From Promethearchaeota archaeon (lineage in GTDB: Archaea; Asgardarchaeota; Lokiarchaeia; Sigynarchaeales; SOKP01), in the NCBI GenBank assembly GCA_014730295.1, contig WJIN01000492.1:1-12295 (forward strand): a stretch of 12,295 nucleotides of DNA. The letters run 5' to 3'. This document shows, piece after piece, positions 1,536 through 12,295 of the stretch. The notes below the pieces were generated by a model. That model did no database searches and had not been told where the DNA came from. It was given only the letters and a program-made list of their open reading frames with translations. Within the stretch, counting starts at the first letter, position 1, and each line of letters starts with the position of its first letter. The position numbers and the translations under genes are program-made.

Positions 1536-2915
1536 ATGGACGTATTGATGATACAGCCGATGATGTTCACCGACAAATGGGCGGGCGCCGTTCCCGTTGC
1601 CCCCCTTGGCGCAACCTTGATCTGCCGGGCGCTCGAACGGGAGGGGGTGCCCTATCGGTTTCTCGACCTGTGCTTCGAAACATCTGAGACTGCCGAAGCG
1701 TTGCTCGCCCTGGCGCTACGCGAACGGCATTATGACGTTATCGCGTTCTCGATCAGGAATGTGGATACAACGCTCTTCGTAAAACCCATCTTCTTTCTTG
1801 AGCAGGTCAGACAGACGGTCGACTTCGTCAGAAAGCACATGCCTTCGACAAGCCGAACGGTGGTGGGTGGCGCGGCGTTTTCCATAATGCCCGCCGCGAT
1901 CCTCGCCTACCTCGATATCGATTACGGCATCATAGGAGAAGGCGAAGAGACATTCATCACGTTGTTACGCAAGCTCTCTCGCGATGAGACCGTACACGAT
2001 ATTGACGGCATTGTGCTCCATGAGGGCGATGGAATCACCGTTTCGCCGAAACAAACCTTCATTACTGACCTCGATGCATGCGCCGCGGTCCCGACTCGAT
2101 ACGTTGACCCTCGCTATCTCGAACCGAGACACTCCAACATGGGCCTCGCGCGTTGCTCAATTAACATTCAGACCAAGCGCGGATGCAGCTTTAACTGTAT
2201 CTACTGCATTTACCCTTGCATCGAGGGACGGCGGACGCGAGCCTTCGACAGCGAAGCCGTTATCGATACGCTTGAGGAGATGAAGCGTGAACGGGGCATA
2301 ACTGAGCTCGAGATCGTCGATTCGGTATTCAATGTGCCCCTCGAGCAGAGCATCGCGTTCTGCGAGGCCCTTATCCGTCGCGACCTCAATGTCGAGTGGA
2401 CCGCCGAATTTGTCCCCCTCAACATGACCGCCGACTATCTCGACCTGTTGAGACGGGCGAAGTGCAGGAAGACCGAGCTCGGTATCGATGTCGTTCATCC
2501 GACACTCATAAAGAACTTCCGTAAGCCGTTTGCGCCCGAAGATGTCGAGCGTACGCTGATGACGATCAACCGGTACGCGATGGATCATCTTGTGTACATG
2601 ATGATAGGCGGACCAGGCGATGATGATGAGAAGATAGCTTTCACGATGGCCTTTCTTGAGGCTCATCACGTGCGTACAATCCTCTTCTTCTTCGGTATTC
2701 GTATATACCCGGGAACAGAGATCGAGAGGATTGCCCGAAACGAGAATACTCTTGGGCCGGATGACGAGCTGCTGTACCCACATTTCTATTTCTCCGCTGC
2801 TATTACGGAAGAATCGATAGCCTGCATGCGAGACCACGCAGACCGCAATCCAGGCTGGGTCTTTGTCGGGCTCGACCAGATCGAGTCCTTCGTCAGCAAG
2901 GGAGCTACCGCATGA
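1536..2915 (+). CDS. B12-binding-domain radical SAM enzyme (first of two)
   Basis: The 459-residue protein has the architecture of class B-type cobalamin radical SAM enzymes. The N-terminal Rossmann-like B12-binding domain (about 1-170) opens with a hydrophobic strand ending in QP and contains VVGG and GEGEE motifs. The radical SAM barrel follows, with the [4Fe-4S] motif CSFNCIYC (Cys217, Cys221, Cys224), a later MIGGPGD loop and an IRIYPGTE motif. Such enzymes use SAM and cobalamin for methylation, cyclisation or rearrangement at unreactive carbons. The canonical DxHxxG cobalamin His ligand is not visible, as in several class B members, so base-off/His-off binding or loss of cobalamin are both possible. 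Relatives occur in lipid and polyketide-like clusters, including anammox loci proposed for ladderanes; the substrate here is unknown. Start ATG 1536 is preceded by AGAAGGAAG (1521-1529). The stop overlaps the next start by ATGA. Confidence 0.9.
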   Translation: MDVLMIQPMMFTDKWAGAVPVAPLGATLICRALEREGVPYRFLDLCFETSETAEALLALALRERHYDVIAFSIRNVDTTLFVKPIFFLEQVRQTVDFVRKHMPSTSRTVVGGAAFSIMPAAILAYLDIDYGIIGEGEETFITLLRKLSRDETVHDIDGIVLHEGDGITVSPKQTFITDLDACAAVPTRYVDPRYLEPRHSNMGLARCSINIQTKRGCSFNCIYCIYPCIEGRRTRAFDSEAVIDTLEEMKRERGITELEIVDSVFNVPLEQSIAFCEALIRRDLNVEWTAEFVPLNMTADYLDLLRRAKCRKTELGIDVVHPTLIKNFRKPFAPEDVERTLMTINRYAMDHLVYMMIGGPGDDDEKIAFTMAFLEAHHVRTILFFFGIRIYPGTEIERIARNENTLGPDDELLYPHFYFSAAITEESIACMRDHADRNPGWVFVGLDQIESFVSKGATA

Positions 2916-4030
2916 GCGTACCCGTGTATTTCGCCGACCTGAGCACAACCCCGAACGTCGGGTTTCCGGAGAAGATCTCTTTGCTGCTCCGAAGGGCCGG
3001 TGTCGACCAAATGTGGGGTGCAAACGACTACGTTGCCCTCAAGACTCACTTTGGGGAAAAGGGAAACATAACCTTTGTCAACCCCGTAGTCATGAAGCAC
3101 ATCGTCCGGACGTGCGGTCAATACACCGACCGACTGTTCCTGACCGACACGAATACGCTCTACATGCTATCACGCGGAGAGGGTATCGGCCACTATCATC
3201 GCGCCTTCGACCATGGGTTCTGTATCGCCACGATGGGCGTCCCGGTGGTTATTGCCGATGGGCTTCGTGGAACGCATTCGGAAGCCGTGCCGATTGAGGG
3301 CGGCAGGCATTACTCGTCGGTGGACGTTGCCCGTGAAATCCACGATGCTGACGGTATGGTCGTCGTCGCCCATTTCAAGCTTCACGACCTTCTGGGGATC
3401 AGCGGTGTCTGCAAGCATTTGGGGATGGGGTGTGTGGCGCGACCGGCGAAGCTCAAGATGCATTCGTCCGTGAATCCCTACATCGATGCCGAAGCGTGCA
3501 CGAGGTGCGGAAAGTGCGTTACGTGGTGCAAACGCGAGGCCATTGCCGCCGATAAGCCATCAGGCGTTGTCTCAATCGACGAGAACGTCTGTACGGGCTG
3601 CGGCATCTGCCTTACCACGTGTCCCTCACGAGCAATCAAGATCCGTTGGAATTCACGCGACCGCGACCTCGCCCGCCTACAAGAGAAGATCATGGAGCAT
3701 GCCGCGGGCGTATTGAGCAACAAGCGCGGCAAGACGGTCTACCTCAGTTTTTTGAAGGACGTATACGTAAATTGCGATTGTGAAGCTCACGTTGGGTCTC
3801 GTGTCGTCAACGACATCGGGATGCTGGCCTCGACTGACCCCGTTGCCATCGACGCCGCATGCGCGGAGCTGGTAAATCAGCGCCCCGGTATCGAATCGGA
3901 ATACCTGCGAGACCCGCTGAGTACGGACAAAATACGCAGCGTATACCCACATATTGATTGGCGTCACCAGCTTTCTTATGCCGAATCGCTCGGCATCGGT
4001 ACTACGGCTTATACTCTTGAACGCGTGTGA
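2912..4030 (+). CDS. DUF362-family 2x[4Fe-4S] iron-sulfur protein
   Basis: This 372-residue protein matches DUF362 from end to end: an early THFGEKGN segment, the DTNTLY motif, and HFKLHDLLGISGVCKHLGMG, which corresponds to the family's usual HFKGH...GFGG..KNLGMG. A bacterial ferredoxin-like insert carries two four-cysteine motifs: Cys196, 199, 202, 206 (CTRCGKCVTWC) and Cys227, 230, 233, 237 (CTGCGICLTTCP). The first motif lacks the proline that usually follows its last Cys. The C-terminal part contains the STDPVAIDAA motif. No signal peptide or membrane segment is apparent, so it is probably cytoplasmic. The biochemical role of the family is poorly defined. The ATGA overlap with one radical SAM gene and the adjacency to another suggest it supplies electrons for SAM cleavage or cobalamin reduction (inference). 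GGGAG lies seven bases before the ATG. Confidence 0.88.
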   Translation: MSVPVYFADLSTTPNVGFPEKISLLLRRAGVDQMWGANDYVALKTHFGEKGNITFVNPVVMKHIVRTCGQYTDRLFLTDTNTLYMLSRGEGIGHYHRAFDHGFCIATMGVPVVIADGLRGTHSEAVPIEGGRHYSSVDVAREIHDADGMVVVAHFKLHDLLGISGVCKHLGMGCVARPAKLKMHSSVNPYIDAEACTRCGKCVTWCKREAIAADKPSGVVSIDENVCTGCGICLTTCPSRAIKIRWNSRDRDLARLQEKIMEHAAGVLSNKRGKTVYLSFLKDVYVNCDCEAHVGSRVVNDIGMLASTDPVAIDAACAELVNQRPGIESEYLRDPLSTDKIRSVYPHIDWRHQLSYAESLGIGTTAYTLERV

Positions 4031-4037
4031 GGAGCTC

Positions 4038-5576
4038 GTGCCGCAACTGAACGGACGAACTGAAATGCAGATCTACCAAACCATCTCGGCACGGAGCGCC
4101 GGAAAGAGAGCAGTCTCAACTGCTAGGCCGAAGGTACTTTTCATCCAGCCGAGGCTGCTGTTTTCGGGTGTCATGAACAGCCCCAATATCGGCATCGCGT
4201 ACATCGTTGCCATGCTGGAGCAGGCCGGGTTCCCGGTATTCGTCATTGACCTCACATCGACGAAACGGTCAAAACGGTCGATCGGCAGGTTCCTTCGGGA
4301 CGAGAGCATCGCCATGGTCTGCGCGGGAGGCCAGACAGCGGTAACGCCGCAGTCGCTGGAGTATCTTGCCCTCGCGAAGAAAGTGAACCCCGCTATCCAG
4401 ACCGTTGTCGGCGGCCCCCATTTCAGCTTTACCGATGTTGAGTCTCTGAAGGACAATGAGTGTATAGATGTAGTAGTTCGCGGTGAAGCTGAGTACACCA
4501 TGCTTGAGCTCTGTCAGGCCTTTGGCCCGGACAAGGATTACGAAGGTATCACTGGAATCACCTACCGTTCGAAGCAAGGCGACATTGTCCGAAACAGCGA
4601 TCGAGAGCTTGTGGCCAATATCGATTCACTGCCGCGGCCGGGTTGGAACCATTTTCCGGTCAACACCTACCACCGCTTCGGCACCCCCATGCTGGGAATC
4701 ATCAGCTCGCGGGGATGCGTGTACCAATGCAAGCATTGCATAACGTGGAAGACCTATGACGGTCGATATCGTCGTCGCGACCCGCGGTTGGTCGTCGAGG
4801 AAATGGCGTATGTGAAGAAGCGATACGGTGTCGACACGTTCTTCTTCCATGACGACCAGTCCTTCGCTGAACCCAAGGAAATGGCTTCGTTTCTCGAGGC
4901 GTTGGGACAATGCCCTGAACGGCTGCACTGGTGCATGCCAAGCCAGGTCGCCACGCTGACCCGCTATAGGCATTTGTGGCCCGAGATGAAGCGGCTCGGT
5001 CTTTTTGAAATCGATATCGGCCTCGAGGCCGCGCAGGAGTCTCAGGTGGAGTATTACAATAAGGATTACTTCGGTCGCGATGCTGTACTTGCTTTCCTTG
5101 AAGAATTCGAGAACAAGCTCGACATTATGGTCAGCGCATACATGGTCATCGGCTCACCGGACGAAACGGAGGAATCGATGCGGGCAACGGTGGGGTTCAT
5201 CGGGGAGTTGGCTGAACAGCATCTGACCCGCGGCATGACCGCAATTCTGACCCCATTCCCCGGCACGGATCTTTACGAGGAGCTCCGTACGCAGAACCGT
5301 ATCCTGAGCCGCGATTGGGGTAAGTACGACCAACGTCGCCTGGTTATGAAAACACTCGTCGAGCCATCTCGCATACGGAAATACCAGATGGTGGGGTTCA
5401 TGGGGGTTGGATCGCCCCCGTACGTCAGACGAATGTGGAACAACCGTCGTTCTGAAAACAGGTTTCGCCGCGATGCCGCGAAGACGCTGATGCCGTTGGC
5501 GATATTCGGCCTGCTGACCGGCAACTACCGCAAACTACGTTCGTTCAGAAACAGTCTGGTTGCACGGGAGCGATAA
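4038..5576 (+). CDS. B12-binding-domain radical SAM enzyme (second)
   Basis: Taken from GTG 4038, the protein is 512 residues. After a variable N-terminus, the B12-binding domain starts at PKVLFIQPRL and includes VVGGPHFSF and VVRGEAEY motifs. The radical SAM domain carries CVYQCKHC (Cys227, Cys231, Cys234). It is followed by an EIDIGLEAAQ segment, a VIGSPDET loop typical of B12-radical SAM proteins, FPGTDLYEEL, and a basic C-terminal tail with a hydrophobic patch near LMPLAIFGLL. No DxHxxG cobalamin ligand is seen. The start is uncertain. GTG 4038 has GAGGAG at 4029-4034 and lies 7 bp after the DUF362 stop; ATG 4065 (503 aa) has no good ribosome site; the upstream TTG 3954 would overlap the previous gene by 77 bp. 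The protein differs clearly from the first radical SAM enzyme, so the two probably act at different steps or positions. Its TAA overlaps the next ATG by one base. Confidence 0.9.
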   Translation: MPQLNGRTEMQIYQTISARSAGKRAVSTARPKVLFIQPRLLFSGVMNSPNIGIAYIVAMLEQAGFPVFVIDLTSTKRSKRSIGRFLRDESIAMVCAGGQTAVTPQSLEYLALAKKVNPAIQTVVGGPHFSFTDVESLKDNECIDVVVRGEAEYTMLELCQAFGPDKDYEGITGITYRSKQGDIVRNSDRELVANIDSLPRPGWNHFPVNTYHRFGTPMLGIISSRGCVYQCKHCITWKTYDGRYRRRDPRLVVEEMAYVKKRYGVDTFFFHDDQSFAEPKEMASFLEALGQCPERLHWCMPSQVATLTRYRHLWPEMKRLGLFEIDIGLEAAQESQVEYYNKDYFGRDAVLAFLEEFENKLDIMVSAYMVIGSPDETEESMRATVGFIGELAEQHLTRGMTAILTPFPGTDLYEELRTQNRILSRDWGKYDQRRLVMKTLVEPSRIRKYQMVGFMGVGSPPYVRRMWNNRRSENRFRRDAAKTLMPLAIFGLLTGNYRKLRSFRNSLVARER

Positions 5577-6721
5577 TGAGCACATTTGAATCAGACACCC
5601 TGGACCTATACGAGGCGATTGACGCATTCGTTCAACGAGGTGTCGACGCCCCGAGGGACGATGAAGAATTCGGCGCCCTCGCATTGCGGTGTTTCGAGAT
5701 GCAGTTCAAGTACAATGAGCCGTACGGACACTATTGCCGACTCCGCGGCATTACCCCTGAGGCGATTTCGCAATGGGAAGAAATACCACCGATGCCGGCA
5801 ATCGGGTTCAAAGAGCTCGAGCTCCGCTGCTTTCCGGTGGAGGAAGTGGTTCGCGTTTTCAGAACCGGCGGCACGAGTGGTGCGGGAAAACGAGGCCAGG
5901 TTTTTCTCAATGAAAAGGGCCTGTCCTATGTGAAGACCGCCCATGAGTGGGTCTGCAAAGAGTACCTCATGCCTGATTGCGACTCCATGGATCTGCTCCT
6001 CATGGTGCCGCCTCCCCACGTCATTCCTGACATACTGATGGCCTTCGGCGTGGTGGTCACGGCCCGTTACATCGGCTCGCGCGAGAACGAGTTTTTCATA
6101 GGCAAGGATGGATTGCGGGTGGACGCGTTGATCGATTGCCTGCGCAAGGCGGAGAGCGCCGGACAGCCTATTGCCCTGATTGGGCCCACCCAGGTAGCCT
6201 ACGGACGGCTCTACGAAACGCTGACTGAGAGAGGCATCCGCTTCTCACTTGCCGAAGGAAGCCGAGTGTTTGATGCCGGAGGGATGAAGTCCGGCGGGCT
6301 TCGGCTCATGTCACGCGAAGAATACCTGCAAAGGACCGAAGAGCTACTCGGCATACCGAGTCACTTTGCCGTCAACGTCCTTGGAATGACGGAGGTAACA
6401 TCAATTTTCTTCGACAACACGATTCGCAATTACCACCATGGTAAGCAGCGCCCCCGCTGCAAGGCGCATTATCCATGGACACGCACGATGGCGATCGACC
6501 CCGAGACTCACGCGCGGCTGCCCACGGGGATGGTTAGTCAGTTGGTGCATTACGATTTGATGAACCTCGGCACGGTCGTCGCTGTTCGAACTGACGACTT
6601 CGGTTACGAACAGGACGGGGGGTTTGAAATTGTGGGACGAGCACTCGGGGCGACTCCCAAGGGATGTGCCCTATCGATGCACGAGCTAGTAACGACCGCG
6701 GAAGGAGCACGCGATGGGTGA
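5576..6721 (+). CDS. LuxE-type acyl-protein synthetase
   Basis: At 381 residues it has the length of LuxE of luminous bacteria. LuxE activates a free fatty acid with ATP to an acyl-adenylate, holds it as a thioester on its own cysteine and passes it to LuxC. The ATP-binding motif RTGGTSG is at 96-102, and the ANL-superfamily-like GMTE motif is at 270-273. Near the C-terminus, Cys364 sits in PKGCALS; in Vibrio harveyi LuxE the acylated residue is also Cys364, so the transfer site appears conserved. GGGAG lies five bases before the ATG. The ATG shares a base with the previous stop, and the C-terminus overlaps luxC-like DNA by 8 bp, fitting a physical LuxE-LuxC complex. No luxAB or luxD is in the window, so bioluminescence is not implied. 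The acid substrate is unknown and could be a released polyketide or a starter acid. Confidence 0.87.
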   Translation: MSTFESDTLDLYEAIDAFVQRGVDAPRDDEEFGALALRCFEMQFKYNEPYGHYCRLRGITPEAISQWEEIPPMPAIGFKELELRCFPVEEVVRVFRTGGTSGAGKRGQVFLNEKGLSYVKTAHEWVCKEYLMPDCDSMDLLLMVPPPHVIPDILMAFGVVVTARYIGSRENEFFIGKDGLRVDALIDCLRKAESAGQPIALIGPTQVAYGRLYETLTERGIRFSLAEGSRVFDAGGMKSGGLRLMSREEYLQRTEELLGIPSHFAVNVLGMTEVTSIFFDNTIRNYHHGKQRPRCKAHYPWTRTMAIDPETHARLPTGMVSQLVHYDLMNLGTVVAVRTDDFGYEQDGGFEIVGRALGATPKGCALSMHELVTTAEGARDG

Positions 6722-8228
6722 GCACTGCGAGTCATGCGTGTATGTGCCGCCGGGCCTTGTCGATGACATATCGAAACAGGGCGTACTGCGGTGGGAAGAC
6801 CCGCGGGGCGAGCATACGGTTCGCCTGACGTATCCGATACTGGCCCCCGCGACCGTGCGAGCGATTCAGAACCGTTTGCGCTCCGCGCGAGAAGAGTATC
6901 TCGTACCTATGACGACCCAACGGATTGCGGGCGACTGCGCCCGCGCGGCCCGACTCTGGTGTGACCCTGCTTTCGAGCTGCGCCGCAAGGCGGAAGCCCT
7001 ACTCCCGGTAATAACCGGCTTTTCATCCGAAATGGTCACGCGCACATTGGATTCGATGATGCTCGGACTGACCGAGGAATCGCTCATGGGCATGGTTTGC
7101 GGTGAGCTTGGCTGCGCCGAGGCACTGGATCGGTTCATTTATCGCGAGGGAACCGCATACCGCTCCATGGCTATGGGCCCCGGACTCGTTACTGAGGTGT
7201 TTTCGGGCAATGTTCCGGGGCTTCCGGTCTTGAGCATCATCTGCGGATTGCTCACCAAGTCCGCGGTCTTCGGCAAATGCGCGACCGGTGAACCGTTATT
7301 CCCCGCGCTCTTCGCTCGAACATTGCGGGAAATCGGCAGTCCGCTCGCTCACGCGCTGGCCATCCTCTATTGGGAAGGCGGCAACGAAGAGATTGAACGT
7401 GCCGCGTTCTCCGGAGCTGATGCGATAATCGCCTACGGCGGTCCCGAGGCTATCGCGGGTATACGCCGAGGCATTCCCGCCGAAACGCGGTTCGTGCCCT
7501 ATGGACACAAGATTAGCTTCGGCGTTGTCAGTGCCGCGAGACTAACGTCTGCTACTCTCTCGACGCTTGCAAAGGCGGCTGCACGGGACACGGCGGTTTT
7601 CGACCAGCAGGGATGCCTTTCACCGCATGCCGTCTTCGTCCAGAACGGCGCGGAAGTACCGCCGAAGGCCTTTGCCGAGGCTCTGGGCGTCGAGCTCGAA
7701 TCGCTCGCCCACGAACTTCCGCGTGGTACGCTTTCCCAGCACGAAGCTATCGAGATGCAGAATACACGCGCTCGCGCACTGTTCTCAGCGATTAAAGGAG
7801 ACTCGGTCACCCTTTTCGCATCTGAAGGTAACCTACAGTGGACGGTTATTCACGACGAATCCGGCGTTTTCACGCCCTCCTGCCTGAACCGGGTCGTACG
7901 AGTCGTTCCTTTCAACACATTCGAGGACCTGCTCACCCTCGTCGCGCCGCTCCGCGGTTTCCTGCAGACCGTGGGATGCGCGGTGTCCCGCGCTGAGAGC
8001 CTGGAGCTCGGGCTTGCACTCGGAGCGATGGGCGCAACCCGCTTTGTTCCGCTTGGAACGATGACCGATGTCACCACCGATTGGCACCACGACGGACGAT
8101 ACAACATACTCGACTTGGTCTATTGGGTCGACATTGTGGAGGAGTGTGGAGCGGATGTGTCGCGTGGTGGTGAGAACGGCGATGCGCTCTCCCGTGTTTC
8201 GGCCAATGAAGGGCGGTGTACCCGATGA
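6714..8228 (+). CDS. LuxC-type acyl-CoA/acyl-protein reductase (PF05893)
   Basis: This 504-residue protein belongs to the LuxC family, distant aldehyde-dehydrogenase-fold reductases that take an acyl group from LuxE, hold it on a cysteine and reduce it with NADPH to the aldehyde. The FSGNVPGLP segment (GNVP at 165-168) matches the family's nucleotide-binding region, and DQQGCLSPH puts the likely catalytic nucleophile at Cys301. The C-terminal part contains the LGTM motif and a tryptophan/histidine-rich stretch (TTDWHHDGRYNILDLVYWVD) often seen near LuxC ends. GGAAGGAG lies before the ATG. The overlap with the synthetase gene indicates coupled translation and stoichiometric production. The expected step is reductive release of a thioester-bound chain to an aldehyde, which could then be reduced, condensed or transaminated. 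The last 4 bp overlap the MFS start. Confidence 0.87.
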   Translation: MGEHCESCVYVPPGLVDDISKQGVLRWEDPRGEHTVRLTYPILAPATVRAIQNRLRSAREEYLVPMTTQRIAGDCARAARLWCDPAFELRRKAEALLPVITGFSSEMVTRTLDSMMLGLTEESLMGMVCGELGCAEALDRFIYREGTAYRSMAMGPGLVTEVFSGNVPGLPVLSIICGLLTKSAVFGKCATGEPLFPALFARTLREIGSPLAHALAILYWEGGNEEIERAAFSGADAIIAYGGPEAIAGIRRGIPAETRFVPYGHKISFGVVSAARLTSATLSTLAKAAARDTAVFDQQGCLSPHAVFVQNGAEVPPKAFAEALGVELESLAHELPRGTLSQHEAIEMQNTRARALFSAIKGDSVTLFASEGNLQWTVIHDESGVFTPSCLNRVVRVVPFNTFEDLLTLVAPLRGFLQTVGCAVSRAESLELGLALGAMGATRFVPLGTMTDVTTDWHHDGRYNILDLVYWVDIVEECGADVSRGGENGDALSRVSANEGRCTR

Positions 8229-9418
8229 AATCATGCGCGGCTCTTCACTCTCTCCTCCGCGATCGCCGACTCATGGTCCTGGCGACGACGGTCGTGTTGG
8301 TGATGTCGAGCATGTCGGCCATACCGATAGTGCTCAGGGAGATCTCGGTCGCACTCTCGGTCTCCGAACATAGCGCGGCCCGGGTCATACCATCATATAT
8401 GGCGGGTTACTTTCTCGGCTCGGTTCTCTATACGCTCTTTTCTTCCCGTATCGGGCCGACGGTACTCACGCGATACTTGCTCATGCTCTTCGTGGTCAGC
8501 AACCTGTTCGCCGCGGCGACATCATCGGTACTTGTCCTTACAGTCGCCCGTTTCGTATCAGGCATTGCTTCCTCGTCATTCGTCCCCTTTACACTCTACT
8601 ATTTGTCCAAGAACCGCGGCAAGTCCGGTTCCGCGGTAGGAACGGTTTTCGCGCTGTCGACCGCCGGAGGACTGATTGGCTCACTTGTCGCGGGACTCGT
8701 TCCCTGGCGGGCGGCGTTCCTAATTCCCGCCCTGCTCGGAGCGGTACTCGTGGCGCTCGGCTGGAAAGACCGGAATGCATCCGAAAGAGCACTTGCTCGT
8801 CCGGACAGGCGGTTCACTCTGTCGCTGTTCCGCCATGGCGAGGTGTGCATGCTCTTGCTCTACATATTCGCACTGCGCACCATGTCGGTCATGGTCTACA
8901 CGTGGATGGGCACGCACCTGCAGGTTGAGAACGGATGGACAAAAGCAATGGTTTCGTTGTTCTATCTTACCGCCGGTCTTCTCGCTGTCGTCGGCAGTAT
9001 GGCTGGGGGGCTGCTGTTGGACCGTATGCGTGGACGTGGAGCGCTCACAGTGTTCGGTTTTCTGTTCGTGTTGTTCTTCGTCGGCTTCTGCTGGGAGCGC
9101 CATGTCGCCCTCGTACCATTGCTGATGTTCGGAGCGTTGTTCGGCTCGGCTCGCCAGGGAATGCATGTCTCCTTTATCGGGCTGCTCTCACGCGCCGACG
9201 ATACCATACGCGCGGCGTCTCTCGGAATGAATAGCGTTGTGGTATTCCTGGCGAACACTCTCGGCTCGGCAGGAATCATCCGCGCGACCAAAATGATTTC
9301 CTTTGAACAGGTTATGCTCGGACTCGGGTGCCTGTTCGTTGTGTGCTACGCAACACTACTGTCGCGCAGAAATCTTATCTACAGAATCGAGAGGGGAACA
9401 CACATGACAAATGCCTAA
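8225..9418 (+). CDS. Major facilitator superfamily transporter
   Basis: The 397-residue hydrophobic protein shows about 12 predicted membrane segments in two halves, the usual length and layout of MFS exporters. The first segment is near residues 16-36. A motif A-like loop is present in the second half (GGLLLDRMRGRG). The first-half equivalent (FSSRIGP) is degenerate. A basic, hydrophilic stretch separates the halves around the centre. I chose ATG 8225 because it forms an ATGA overlap with the reductase stop and has AAGGGCGG eight to nine bases upstream; a GTG at 8216 would add three residues but lies inside that ribosome site. The substrate cannot be read from sequence. Co-translation with the LuxC-like reductase suggests export of the pathway product or self-protection. 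Confidence 0.88.
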   Translation: MKSCAALHSLLRDRRLMVLATTVVLVMSSMSAIPIVLREISVALSVSEHSAARVIPSYMAGYFLGSVLYTLFSSRIGPTVLTRYLLMLFVVSNLFAAATSSVLVLTVARFVSGIASSSFVPFTLYYLSKNRGKSGSAVGTVFALSTAGGLIGSLVAGLVPWRAAFLIPALLGAVLVALGWKDRNASERALARPDRRFTLSLFRHGEVCMLLLYIFALRTMSVMVYTWMGTHLQVENGWTKAMVSLFYLTAGLLAVVGSMAGGLLLDRMRGRGALTVFGFLFVLFFVGFCWERHVALVPLLMFGALFGSARQGMHVSFIGLLSRADDTIRAASLGMNSVVVFLANTLGSAGIIRATKMISFEQVMLGLGCLFVVCYATLLSRRNLIYRIERGTHMTNA

Positions 9419-9484
9419 TGCCGTTCACGGTCAGGTGATTCCTCATTCTATCAGTTTAACCGAATACAAACGGAGAAACGCTGT
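9419..9484 (+). promoter_or_regulatory. 66-bp gap before the ABC transporter genes
   Basis: This is the largest gap in the gene array. It opens with a small dyad, CCGT-TC-ACGG (9421-9430), too weak and without a T-run to count as a terminator. It then becomes AT-richer, and a poor promoter match can be drawn (TTCACG at 9424 and TATCAG at 9449, spacing 19). Either read-through from the MFS gene or a weak internal promoter for the ABC-ketosynthase part is possible. GGAG at 9472-9475 is the ribosome site of the permease. Confidence 0.25.
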
Positions 9485-10630
9485 ATGTTCCAATACGTCA
9501 TTAGTAACATCCTCAGGCAGAAGGCCAAGAGTGTTCTGCTCGTGGTAGGAATCTCGGCCCTTGTGTCGATGGTTATCTGCATTACGGGGATAGTGTCCTA
9601 CCAGTTGCGCAATGCGGAGCTTCATTCCGCGGTAACTGCGGGTCGCGTTGTAGTACAGCCACAGTACACAGGGACCACATTCCCCCCTTCAACGCGGGAG
9701 CTTCCCGAAGAGGAATTTGAGGCCGTCGAGTCGGCCGGCGAGTTTCAGCCTCATTTGTCCACACCAGTGCTCTTTCACATTGTAGAACCGCCCGAATACC
9801 CGACCGGCCCGCCATTGCAGCTTCTCGTCGGACTGCGCCCCGGCGCCATAAAGGCGATCACTGGTGATGCGGCTCACGAAACCAAGACCATCAAGGGCGA
9901 GCTTGCCTTGCCGAGCGAAAACCATGTCGTGCTTGGGAACCGCACCTTTCAGCGGCTCAAGGAGGAAAATCCCGACATTGGTGTCGGCTCAACCGTGGAG
10001 CTGATGGGCGAAACCTTTACGGTGAGCGGTGTCCTCGATGTTTCGAACGATCAAATGGTGGATTTTACCTATATCATAGATCTGAAGAAAGCGCAGGAGA
10101 TATTCGACAAGCCCGGTTTCGTCTCCTCCTTCGTGCTTACACTCGAAGACGTTTCCAAGCTATCCGAAACCAGCGACAGAATAAATGCACTCGGCGAGAA
10201 CTACGCGCTCATTACCAATGAAACCATGGCGCAGAACGTCGAGGAGGGCATCAAGCTCTTCAAGAGCCTGGTGGTCACTATCTCAACCGTCGTCATCCTC
10301 GTTTCAACCATCATGATAATGACCGTGATGCTTCTCAGTATTCGTGAGCGTACCAGAGATATCGGCATATTCCGCGCCCTGGGTATGCCGAACAGCAGAA
10401 TCATCATGTTGGTGTTCTGGGAGATATTCATAATCGCATCGCTCGGCTGCCTAATCGGCGGCGCTGTCTCATCGTACGTTCTCAAATACCAAATGCTTTT
10501 CGACCTGTTCGATTTTGGGCATATAGTCAAGGTCGTACCCTTGGCACTCCTTCTGTCGGTGCTCTCGTCGATAGTACCTGCTCTCCGTATCGTGAAAATC
10601 AACCCAATCGAGGCGCTCCACTATGAATAA
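9485..10630 (+). CDS. MacB/LolCE/FtsX-type ABC transporter permease
   Basis: The 381-residue protein has the four-helix layout of the type VII (MacB/LolCE) exporter family. TM1 is at about 16-40, followed by a large extracytoplasmic domain (about 41-260, MacB-PCD-like), then TM2 (262-285), TM3 (306-332) and TM4 (350-369). The cytoplasmic coupling segment RERTRDIGIFRALGMP (287-302) and the C-terminal KINPIEAL motif are family hallmarks. Such permeases do not usually move substrate through a membrane channel; they transmit ATPase motion to the periplasm to extrude lipoproteins, peptides, antibiotics or lipids. No membrane-fusion protein or outer-membrane channel gene is present in the window. 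The 3' end overlaps the ATPase gene by 8 bp, so the two form one transporter. In this cluster it likely exports or confers tolerance to the product. Confidence 0.9.
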   Translation: MFQYVISNILRQKAKSVLLVVGISALVSMVICITGIVSYQLRNAELHSAVTAGRVVVQPQYTGTTFPPSTRELPEEEFEAVESAGEFQPHLSTPVLFHIVEPPEYPTGPPLQLLVGLRPGAIKAITGDAAHETKTIKGELALPSENHVVLGNRTFQRLKEENPDIGVGSTVELMGETFTVSGVLDVSNDQMVDFTYIIDLKKAQEIFDKPGFVSSFVLTLEDVSKLSETSDRINALGENYALITNETMAQNVEEGIKLFKSLVVTISTVVILVSTIMIMTVMLLSIRERTRDIGIFRALGMPNSRIIMLVFWEIFIIASLGCLIGGAVSSYVLKYQMLFDLFDFGHIVKVVPLALLLSVLSSIVPALRIVKINPIEALHYE

Positions 10631-11366
10631 GAACTACCAGTTCCGGATGGAGAACATCTATAAGACCTACATAATGGGCTCGGTCACTGTCGAAGTCCTC
10701 AGAGGCCTTTCGATTTCCGTTGAAAAGGGCACGACGAATGCGGTCATTGGTCCGAGCGGTTCCGGCAAATCGACCTTCCTGAACATCCTCGGCACGATGG
10801 ACACACCGACATCCGGCGAATATCAGTTCGAGGGCAGATCGGTCAGTGGGCTGTCCGACAGGGAGCGCACGCGGCTCCGTGCAGAGCATCTCGGTTTCGT
10901 CTTCCAGAACTACAACCTGATCCCCTCTCTGAACGTATTCCACAACGTGGCCGTACCGCTCCACATCTTGAACGAGGACCGGAAGACAATTGCCGCTAAG
11001 GTCGGCAAGGTGCTCGAGGAGGTCGGGCTATCCCATCGTCGAAACCACCACCCCAGCGAGCTGTCGGGTGGTGAGAGGCAGCGTGTGGCCATCGCTCGGG
11101 CGATTCTGAAGGACTGCTCGCTAATCATAGCGGACGAGCCAACGGGAAACCTTGATGAGAAGACCAGCATCGACATCGTCAGGCTGCTCTGTCGCATCAA
11201 CGAACAGCGAGGGACGACACTGCTGGTTGTCACACACGATGTCGAGTTGACCTGCCATTTCCAGACCACGTTTCGTATGAAGGACGGGCGGATTGCGCAG
11301 GAATCAAAGAGTGGCGCGGAAGCAAAGCGGGAATGTGCCGAGCCGCAACGCACGAAATCTTGTTGA
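10623..11366 (+). CDS. MacB/LolD-type ABC transporter ATP-binding protein
   Basis: A complete nucleotide-binding domain of 247 residues. Walker A is GPSGSGKST (43-51), the Q-loop Gln is at 95 in FQNYNL, the signature is LSGGE (147-151), Walker B is LIIADE ending at Asp171-Glu172, the D-loop is GNLD, and the switch His is at 205 (THD). The FQNYNL and EPTGNLD wording is characteristic of the LolD/MacB/FtsE subfamily, matching the permease just upstream. The last about 20 residues are a charged, Lys/Glu/Arg-rich tail ending in Cys, outside the conserved domain. The start ATG overlaps the permease end by 8 bp, with a GAGG-type ribosome site inside the permease gene. It acts at the inner face of the membrane as a dimer driving the permease. 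Confidence 0.95.
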   Translation: MNKNYQFRMENIYKTYIMGSVTVEVLRGLSISVEKGTTNAVIGPSGSGKSTFLNILGTMDTPTSGEYQFEGRSVSGLSDRERTRLRAEHLGFVFQNYNLIPSLNVFHNVAVPLHILNEDRKTIAAKVGKVLEEVGLSHRRNHHPSELSGGERQRVAIARAILKDCSLIIADEPTGNLDEKTSIDIVRLLCRINEQRGTTLLVVTHDVELTCHFQTTFRMKDGRIAQESKSGAEAKRECAEPQRTKSC

Positions 11367-11388
11367 CATGAATCGAAAGAAGGAACAC

Positions 11389-12295
11389 ATGAAAAGGCGA
11401 GTTGTCATGACCGGAGCGGGTGTCATTACCCCCTGCGGACTGGACGTCGCATCGTTCTGGGAGAACTCCCGCTCAGGGAAATCCTACGTTTCGAGCGTCG
11501 CTGATGAGCAGGACTTCCCATTCAACTCCCGCGTAGCGGGCAAGATAAGAGACTTTGATTGGAACGACCATGGCATCACCGAGAGCGAGGCGGAGCAAAT
11601 GGGACGCCCCGCGCAGTTCGCCGTTGCTGCGGCGCGGCAGGCTATTGCCGACTCGGGTCTCGAGCTCGACGATGAGCTCCGGGGGCGAGCTGGGGTGTGC
11701 ATTGCATCGGCGATTGCCGATACCCCGGCAGCCGAGCGAGTGTTCGCACGAATCAAGGATTCCATCTATGCATCCCATGACATCAGTCAGGACGTCGACA
11801 GGCACCTGTTCCAGAAGGCGATGTTCAATGCCATCGCCACTACTCTCTCCGGGCGCTTTGGCTTGCATGGCGAAGCGTTTGTCATGTCCACGGGATGTAC
11901 TGGTGGGATCGATGCCGTCGGATACGGGTTCGAAACTATCGCTCACGGCGACGCGGATGTGATGCTTGTCGGCGGTTCGGATGCGCCGCTTACCGGGATA
12001 AGTTATTCCTCCTTTGATGCGATCTCGGCGACTTCGCAGAAAAACGACGACCCTTCAAGGGCCTCTTCTCCTTTTGACATTACTCGTGACGGCTTTGTGC
12101 TCGGCGAGGGATGTGGGATGATTGTGCTGGAGGAATACGAGCATGCGTTGGCGCGTGGCGCCTTTGTGTATGCCGAAGTGAAGGGATATGATTCCCTCTC
12201 GAATGCATGGCACATGACCGACCTGCCGAAGGACGGCTCGCCGCTGGCCCACTTGTTTCGTCGAGTCATGGATGACGCGGGAGTGCGTCCGGAGG
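11389..12295 (+). CDS. Type II PKS-like beta-ketoacyl synthase (KS-alpha), 3' truncated by window edge
   Basis: The first 302 codons of a KAS-II-like ketosynthase are present (about 420 residues expected). It opens with MKRRVVMTGAGV. The nucleophile is Cys170 in STGCTGGIDAVG, closer to the STGCTSGLDSVG of aromatic type II PKS KS-alpha subunits than to the TACTSG of FabF. Flanks agree: RPAQFAVAAARQA, then DAPLTG...FDAISAT..NDDP..AS.PFD.TRDGFVLGEG, and SNAWHMT. The Cys is present, so it is not a chain-length factor. The catalytic His motifs lie beyond the edge. ATG 11389 has AAGGA four bases upstream; the in-frame ATG 11368 has no ribosome site. It would condense acyl and malonyl-ACP units. A chain-length factor and ACP are expected next but are not in the window. 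An aryl-polyene or other FabF-like KS remains an alternative. Confidence 0.88.
   Translation, partial: MKRRVVMTGAGVITPCGLDVASFWENSRSGKSYVSSVADEQDFPFNSRVAGKIRDFDWNDHGITESEAEQMGRPAQFAVAAARQAIADSGLELDDELRGRAGVCIASAIADTPAAERVFARIKDSIYASHDISQDVDRHLFQKAMFNAIATTLSGRFGLHGEAFVMSTGCTGGIDAVGYGFETIAHGDADVMLVGGSDAPLTGISYSSFDAISATSQKNDDPSRASSPFDITRDGFVLGEGCGMIVLEEYEHALARGAFVYAEVKGYDSLSNAWHMTDLPKDGSPLAHLFRRVMDDAGVRPE

Follow-up and report, generated by a model that had tools for sequence, protein, structure and literature searches.

The gene run and its spacing

We analysed the complete 12,295-base contig WJIN01000492.1 of a Promethearchaeota archaeon, called the window below, which carries nine plus-strand genes from position 1536 to its 3' end. 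In order, they encode a cobalamin-binding radical S-adenosylmethionine protein (rSAM1), a DUF362 protein, a second cobalamin-binding radical SAM protein (rSAM2), LuxE, LuxC, a major facilitator superfamily (MFS) transporter, the permease and ATPase of an ATP-binding cassette (ABC) transporter, and a ketosynthase (KS), inside whose gene the contig ends. The combination is real: Pfam and NCBIfam matches and motifs bore out these gene identities, which had been proposed from the letters alone (the sequence-only reading). The genes make up an unusual variant of a type II polyketide synthase (PKS)-type cluster with a presumed aldehyde logic.

The rSAM1 gene (1536..2915) overlaps the DUF362 gene (2912..4030) by 4 bases; after a gap of 34 bases, rSAM2 (4065..5576) overlaps luxE (5576..6721) by 1 base, luxE overlaps luxC (6714..8228) by 8 bases, and luxC overlaps the MFS gene (8225..9418) by 4 bases. 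The sequence-only reading had joined all of these genes by tight overlaps, which is right for the pairs just named and passes over the 34-base gap; that gap disappears if rSAM2 starts at the upstream TTG at 3954. The 66-bp gap it placed at 9419-9484 is correct by coordinates. Beyond this gap lie the gene of the MacB/FtsX-type ABC permease (9485..10630) and, overlapping it by 8 bases, that of the LolD/MacB-type ABC ATPase (10623..11366), on the same strand as the KS gene, as had been stated. The KS gene (11368..12295) is nearly contiguous with the ATPase gene: it follows after 1 base, or after 22 bases if translation begins at a second ATG (11389), which is preceded by AAGGA, a better ribosome-binding site than that of the start at 11368.

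The MFS protein (PF07690, 90.8 bits) is a probable exporter, with scores far under the cut-off for the NCBIfam efflux families. The permease matches PF02687 and PF12704, and the ATPase (PF00005) scored 251 bits against the LolD family, under its cut-off of 308. A family scan of the nine genes found no oxygen-dependent tailoring enzyme, no thioesterase-like or LuxD-like chain-releasing gene and no phytoene-desaturase-like gene. As neither luxAB luciferase genes nor luxD turned up in a scan of the nine genes and the eight open reading frames (ORFs) that precede them, the run is not a bioluminescence lux operon. The eight ORFs occupy the first 1535 bases and have no Pfam match at cut-off, with one chance-level hit (E 0.14); the region may be a long leader or hold a gene that is decayed or novel. 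The window gave no Rfam match at the gathering threshold and no tRNA match.

Identity of the ketosynthase and the neighbouring enzymes

The visible part of the KS (PF00109) comprises 309 aa, about three quarters of the protein, the closest relatives listed being mostly 410-440 aa long. Among the best 60 of 151 matches to chains of solved structures, the actinorhodin KS-alpha 1tqy_A came first (226 bits), followed by 6smo_B, a PKS_KS-domain protein (218 bits), and FabF chains reached at most 201 bits. We take 6smo_B to be AntD of Photorhabdus. The top database relative, P0137, is 55% identical, and the rest of the best 120 of 1678 relatives are mostly 40-52% identical; those listed include proteins of Paenibacillus (48%) and Gorillibacterium (47%) and several named in their source as minimal PKS ketosynthase (KS/KS alpha). 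We built an 84-row tree of the window KS, its 39 top-ranking relatives, a random 20 of the 80 ranked next, and 24 rows from fetched loci, the last labelled as FabF, KS-alpha or chain length factor (CLF) by source and score. This tree placed the window KS in a KS-alpha group of 67 rows, separate from 10 FabF and 7 CLF rows (100/97). Within that group it lies in a subclade of 18 rows (100/99) together with a Paenibacillus KS, with P0137 as its sister (100/93). An active-site-type Cys lies in TGCTGG (motif at residue 175), so that by active-site Cys and clade the protein qualifies as a KS-alpha of type II PKS; the expected catalytic His region lies past the contig end. We also considered a housekeeping FabF and rejected it on the solved-structure scores, the tree, and a comparison of 29 LuxE-bearing genomes, in which the best KS match reached 213.5 bits and grouped with FabF. 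Judged on these sequence comparisons, the window KS is almost certainly of the KS-alpha type and not FabF, and the type II PKS identity first assigned to it stands. In the same tree, three Omnitrophota proteins of KS-alpha type (P0165-P0167) lie near those of loci L073-L077.

The C-terminal KGCALSM of the window LuxE (acyl-protein synthetase, PF04443) aligned in phmmer with KGCSLSM of LuxE 7xc6_E from the solved LuxC-LuxE complex, and DQQGC of the window LuxC (acyl reductase, PF05893, 297.7 bits) with DQQAC of LuxC 7xc6_A. The sections consulted of a study on Photobacterium phosphoreum place the acylation sites at LuxE Cys364 and at LuxC Cys286 in YDQQACFSTQ (PMC8301110). The window proteins thus combine the marks of a LuxC-LuxE acid reductase, namely a C-terminal acyl-transfer Cys in LuxE (Cys364) and a Cys in DQQxC in LuxC as the predicted acylation site. 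The bioluminescence equivalogs are far off (LuxE 54.7 of 550 bits, LuxC 99.8 of 750 bits). A PaaK/ligase-like protein with no reductase role was rejected as less likely, given the C-terminal Cys of LuxE and the LuxC gene next to it. By these residues, LuxE and LuxC very likely function as an acid reductase that would convert a carboxylate to an aldehyde.

The pair might also serve a starter unit or a side product, so that the aldehyde is used outside the PKS chain and never involves the polyketide. LuxC and LuxE are described, in the portions of the source covered here, as using free acids by way of acyl-enzymes (PMC8301110), and none of the nine genes resembles a thioesterase or LuxD that would release a chain; equally, no starter-specific gene is visible. 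We regard this explanation as highly improbable.

Genome contigs, several of them short, were scanned with 15 aligned LuxE proteins and two peptide patterns, which yielded at least 60 LuxE loci. Within 5 kb of LuxE and on the same strand, 21 of 60 had a match to a B12 radical SAM protein, 17 had LuxC, none had both and 22 had neither. The motif [KRPAST][GT]C[SA] occurred in the last 45 residues of all 19 LuxC-linked LuxEs (17 from the 60 loci and two from plasmids) and in 0 of 21 radical-SAM-linked ones; among the others it was counted in 7 of 22, some of which are cut by contig ends, and QGCS in the long tails of L002 and L003 was left uncounted. By its C-terminal Cys motif, the window LuxE is of the reductase kind. 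Its top relatives by identity are radical-SAM-linked LuxEs (41%); in a LuxE tree built without L058 and L060, whose matches were too short, its branch is long, with a weak placement (94/88) adjoining the radical-SAM-linked side. The window thus joins radical SAM and LuxC neighbours that occur together in none of the 60 loci.

Several further features of this family were observed. The LuxE-family proteins that lie near B12 radical SAM genes and have no C-terminal Cys motif (21 of loci L001-L059) occur in Geobacteraceae, Aromatoleum, Thermincola and others, and a DUF362 gene is also present at one of these loci (L025). In L002 and L031, an ORF neighbouring the LuxE-family gene shows, by eye, several CxxCH haem-type motifs. 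Four LuxE relatives (P0004, P0013, L018 and L051) have repeated CSTVAD-type Cys motifs in their C-terminal tails, perhaps several acyl-carrying cysteines. In the two plasmid loci, L085 (Pantoea) and L086 (Azospirillum), the LuxE-LuxC pair bears the annotations long-chain fatty acid-CoA ligase and acyl-CoA reductase, and a gene named 3-oxoacyl-ACP reductase lies close by.

Both radical SAM proteins carry PF02310 and PF04055 domains and a CxxxCxxC motif (CSFNCIYC at residue 217 of rSAM1, CVYQCKHC at 218 of rSAM2), which together with the predicted cobalamin-binding domain mark them as candidate cobalamin radical SAM enzymes. The nearest NCBIfam families of rSAM2 are BchE (165 bits, cut-off 481) and HpnJ, both far under their cut-offs. 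The predicted model of rSAM1 (pLDDT 91.9) best matched TsrM in the PDB (6wte/6wtf, TM by query 0.73-0.75), followed by MgmA, CysS, OxsB, AprD4 and TokK. Some titles of the matched CysS and TokK entries carry pantetheine-linked substrates, and carrier-linked substrates are therefore conceivable for rSAM1. The DUF362 protein (PF04015, 137.8 bits, plus Fer4 families) contains two CxxCxxCxxxC motifs; as a protein with two 4Fe-4S motifs, it is the probable electron donor.

The best NCBIfam match of rSAM1 is TIGR04072, whose members are called lipid biosynthesis B12-binding/radical SAM proteins. This match speaks for a specialised-lipid pathway of the anaerobic polyunsaturated-hydrocarbon or ladderane type, in which the radical SAM proteins would modify acyl chains on acyl carrier protein (ACP) and LuxE/LuxC would convert the completed fatty acid to an aldehyde destined for a lipid or hydrocarbon. 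At 277 bits against a cut-off of 360, rSAM1 was not accepted as a member of that family, on which the open-licence literature yielded no paper. With this score and a KS-alpha-like KS, the window does not hold a ladderane-type cluster in the sense of a radical SAM protein over the TIGR04072 cut-off together with a fabF-type KS. Relatives of rSAM1 at E<=1e-60 occur in 21 of 148 genomes of one phylum, and the ten best-scoring places were fetched. KS-like or ACP-like matches lie near the relative in six of them (L106, L108, L110, L111, L113 and L114), the ACP-like ones being weak (37-44 bits), and an SDR match in eight; because of these six loci, an acyl-ACP substrate is plausible for rSAM1, which also fits a lipid product. 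Some of the six hold further radical SAM matches, as ladderane-type clusters of type II fatty acid synthesis (FASII) do. In a second, quick tree built without bootstrap, three of the five KS-like proteins beside rSAM1 relatives grouped with FabF, with a modest support of 83, and the other two were unplaced long branches. None of the five groups with the window KS, whose place is still within the KS-alpha clade, and this, together with the absence of a phytoene-desaturase-like gene from the nine genes scanned, counts against a lipid product. The parts consulted of a study of an anammox bacterium add to its case, since they describe FASII clusters, partly syntenic with Desulfotalea, in which several fabF paralogues stand alongside radical SAM enzymes, one of these bearing a B12 domain (PMC2649909). 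On balance, we consider the lipid pathway unlikely.

Occurrence of the gene combination in other loci

Conservation of the neighbourhood in relatives, to which the sequence-only reading had looked, was not found. No match to the window KS occurs at any of the 60 LuxE loci, and no match to LuxE, LuxC or DUF362 at any of seven KS-alpha loci (L078-L084, 7.4 to 20 kb), none of which comes from the subclade of the window KS. In the genomes of these seven loci, LuxE was not found by a search run without a positive control, and LuxC gave one partial 23-bit match (1/7). Viral contigs yielded no relatives when scanned with the alignments for LuxE and the KS. Among plasmids, the 12 KS records listed of 852 are all from Streptomyces, the 62 rSAM1 records are each below 60% identity, and LuxE gave 27 records; the two loci inspected, in Pantoea and Azospirillum, are both LuxE-LuxC and have no annotated PKS genes nearby. 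The group to which several Bacillota-labelled loci belong was drawn three times, each time without Paenibacillus: 0 of 249 genomes had a KS at E<=1e-65 in each of two draws, and in the third, of 199 genomes, the KS profile reached at best 437 bits, against 560-586 bits for the KS-alphas of L078-L082. We found no paper in the open-licence literature that combines a KS-alpha, a B12 radical SAM protein and LuxE/LuxC.

The survey also bears on whether the window holds two adjoining units, with the genes from rSAM1 to the MFS transporter devoted to one product and the ABC and KS genes starting a separate polyketide cluster. The LuxE loci, LuxC-linked and radical-SAM-linked alike, stand apart from KS, and the 66-base gap falls between the two proposed units. 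On the other hand, all the genes share one strand, a scan of the gap found neither terminator-like nor promoter-like sites, and gaps this short are common within operons. The nearest plus-strand terminator-like site (9315) lies within the MFS gene; both scans were weak and near chance, with 15 terminators against 10.1 expected and 5 promoters against 6.6 expected. Two separate units appear improbable to us, and from the spacing the KS probably belongs to the same transcription unit as the other genes.

KS-alpha also occurs beside a cobalamin radical SAM protein in a separate set of clusters. A KS at E<=1e-65 occurred in five of 297 genomes of the phylum of genome G019 and in two of 301 of the phylum of G004. 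The same five were recovered by the KS profile in 198 genomes of the phylum of G005, which carries the Desulfurivibrionaceae locus L009; they scored 560-586 bits, the next match 431 bits. These five loci, L078-L082 (genomes G366, G464, G332, G376 and G522), probably belong to Thermodesulfobacteriota. Matched to L078, all five have a B12 radical SAM protein, a PanE-like protein, KS-alpha, CLF, ACP, a cyclase, an SRPBCC protein and an SDR. An aldehyde:ferredoxin-oxidoreductase-like protein was matched in L078, L079 and L080 and not in L081, and L082 starts downstream of its expected position; FAD and FMN oxidoreductase genes were matched in L078 and L079 only. These clusters resemble the window in having both a KS-alpha and a cobalamin radical SAM protein, accompanied in three of five by the aldehyde:ferredoxin-oxidoreductase-like protein, but their KS-alphas are 42-44% identical to that of the window, belong to another subclade, and have no LuxE, LuxC or DUF362 match beside them. 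The acid/aldehyde theme that they may share with the window, there through the oxidoreductase and here through LuxE/LuxC, is an analogy. With KS-alpha found beside a B12 radical SAM protein in two separate kinds of cluster, oxygen-free tailoring becomes more plausible, and L078-L082 would serve as more complete examples for testing it. The open-licence literature yielded no paper on these clusters.

Proposed pathway and comparison with known systems

We give about an even chance to the explanation that the genes of the window open a single operon whose product is a type II polyketide, synthesised without oxygen and secreted. The oxygen-independent route with an aldehyde proposed in the sequence-only reading is upheld as regards the KS-alpha, a credible LuxE-LuxC pair and the lack of an oxygen-dependent enzyme; a complete PKS and the passage of the chain through an aldehyde go beyond these genes. 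A complete type II PKS would require CLF, ACP, ketoreductase and cyclase genes past the contig end. With CLF and ACP just beyond that end, the KS-alpha/CLF pair would build a poly-beta-keto chain on ACP. LuxE would use ATP to load a carboxylic acid, either a starter or the released chain, onto its Cys, and LuxC would accept the acyl group from LuxE and reduce it with NADPH to the aldehyde. The two radical SAM proteins may methylate carbons of the chain or form C-C bonds on it, drawing electrons from the DUF362 protein, and the product would leave through the MFS and ABC transporters.

Going by the gene spacing, the KS, LuxE/LuxC and the radical SAM proteins may act on one molecule, and we slightly favour an aldehyde that belongs to the polyketide's own pathway. 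More specifically, LuxE might activate the free polyketide acid anew and LuxC reduce it to the aldehyde, with the two cobalamin radical SAM proteins replacing oxygenases; we put this forward as a tentative and rather doubtful possibility. The one-operon explanation is supported by L078-L082 as a precedent for KS-alpha/CLF and a B12 radical SAM protein in one cluster. Several points weigh against it: the contig ends inside the KS gene, and CLF, ACP, ketoreductase and cyclase are all absent from the nine genes; the operon membership of the KS is argued from spacing; we infer the substrates and products of all the enzymes; the combination occurs in none of the other loci examined (60 LuxE and seven KS-alpha loci, the latter all outside the KS's own subclade); and the search of the seven KS-alpha genomes for LuxE, run with no positive control, was negative.

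Compared with aromatic type II PKS (actinorhodin, 1tqy_A; 6smo_B), the window has a KS of the same KS-alpha family, but the neighbours of this KS are radical SAM proteins and LuxC/LuxE, and the contig ends before any CLF or ACP. Aromatic polyketides of the clostrubin type are reportedly known from clostridia, which are anaerobes, so that the occurrence of type II PKS in anaerobes is in itself already known; likened here by description, they have to our knowledge no link to radical SAM proteins or LuxC/LuxE. The coelulatin cluster, as far as the consulted part of its description extends, likewise joins a type II PKS to a radical SAM tailoring enzyme, but this is a HemN-like methylase, the cluster was expressed in Streptomyces from a soil cosmid, and that part describes no LuxE/LuxC (PMC9714029). 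The FASII clusters of the ladderane or polyunsaturated-hydrocarbon kind share with the window KS paralogues accompanied by radical SAM and radical SAM/B12 proteins in anaerobes; they differ in their fabF-type KS and phytoene-desaturase-like genes, and the excerpts consulted describe no LuxC/LuxE (PMC2649909). According to the sections covered of a KS-CLF survey, KS-CLFs were counted in 14 phyla, including Firmicutes, deltaproteobacteria, Nitrospirae and Omnitrophica, with one large clade mainly non-actinobacterial; type II PKS outside actinobacteria was therefore already known (PMC10132072).

With the bioluminescence LuxC-LuxE complex (7xc6), the window shares both subunits and both predicted acylation cysteines, and its luxE and luxC genes overlap; unlike that system, the window pair stands amid radical SAM and PKS-type genes, and the genes scanned include neither a luciferase nor LuxD. 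Most work on aromatic polyketides concerns aerobic actinomycetes, in which tailoring falls to oxygenases. A KS-alpha beside cobalamin radical SAM proteins and a Lux-type reductase would point to an oxygen-free finishing of such compounds, and if a Lux-type pair indeed forms the aldehyde by ATP-driven reduction, type II polyketides would have a finishing step that is new.

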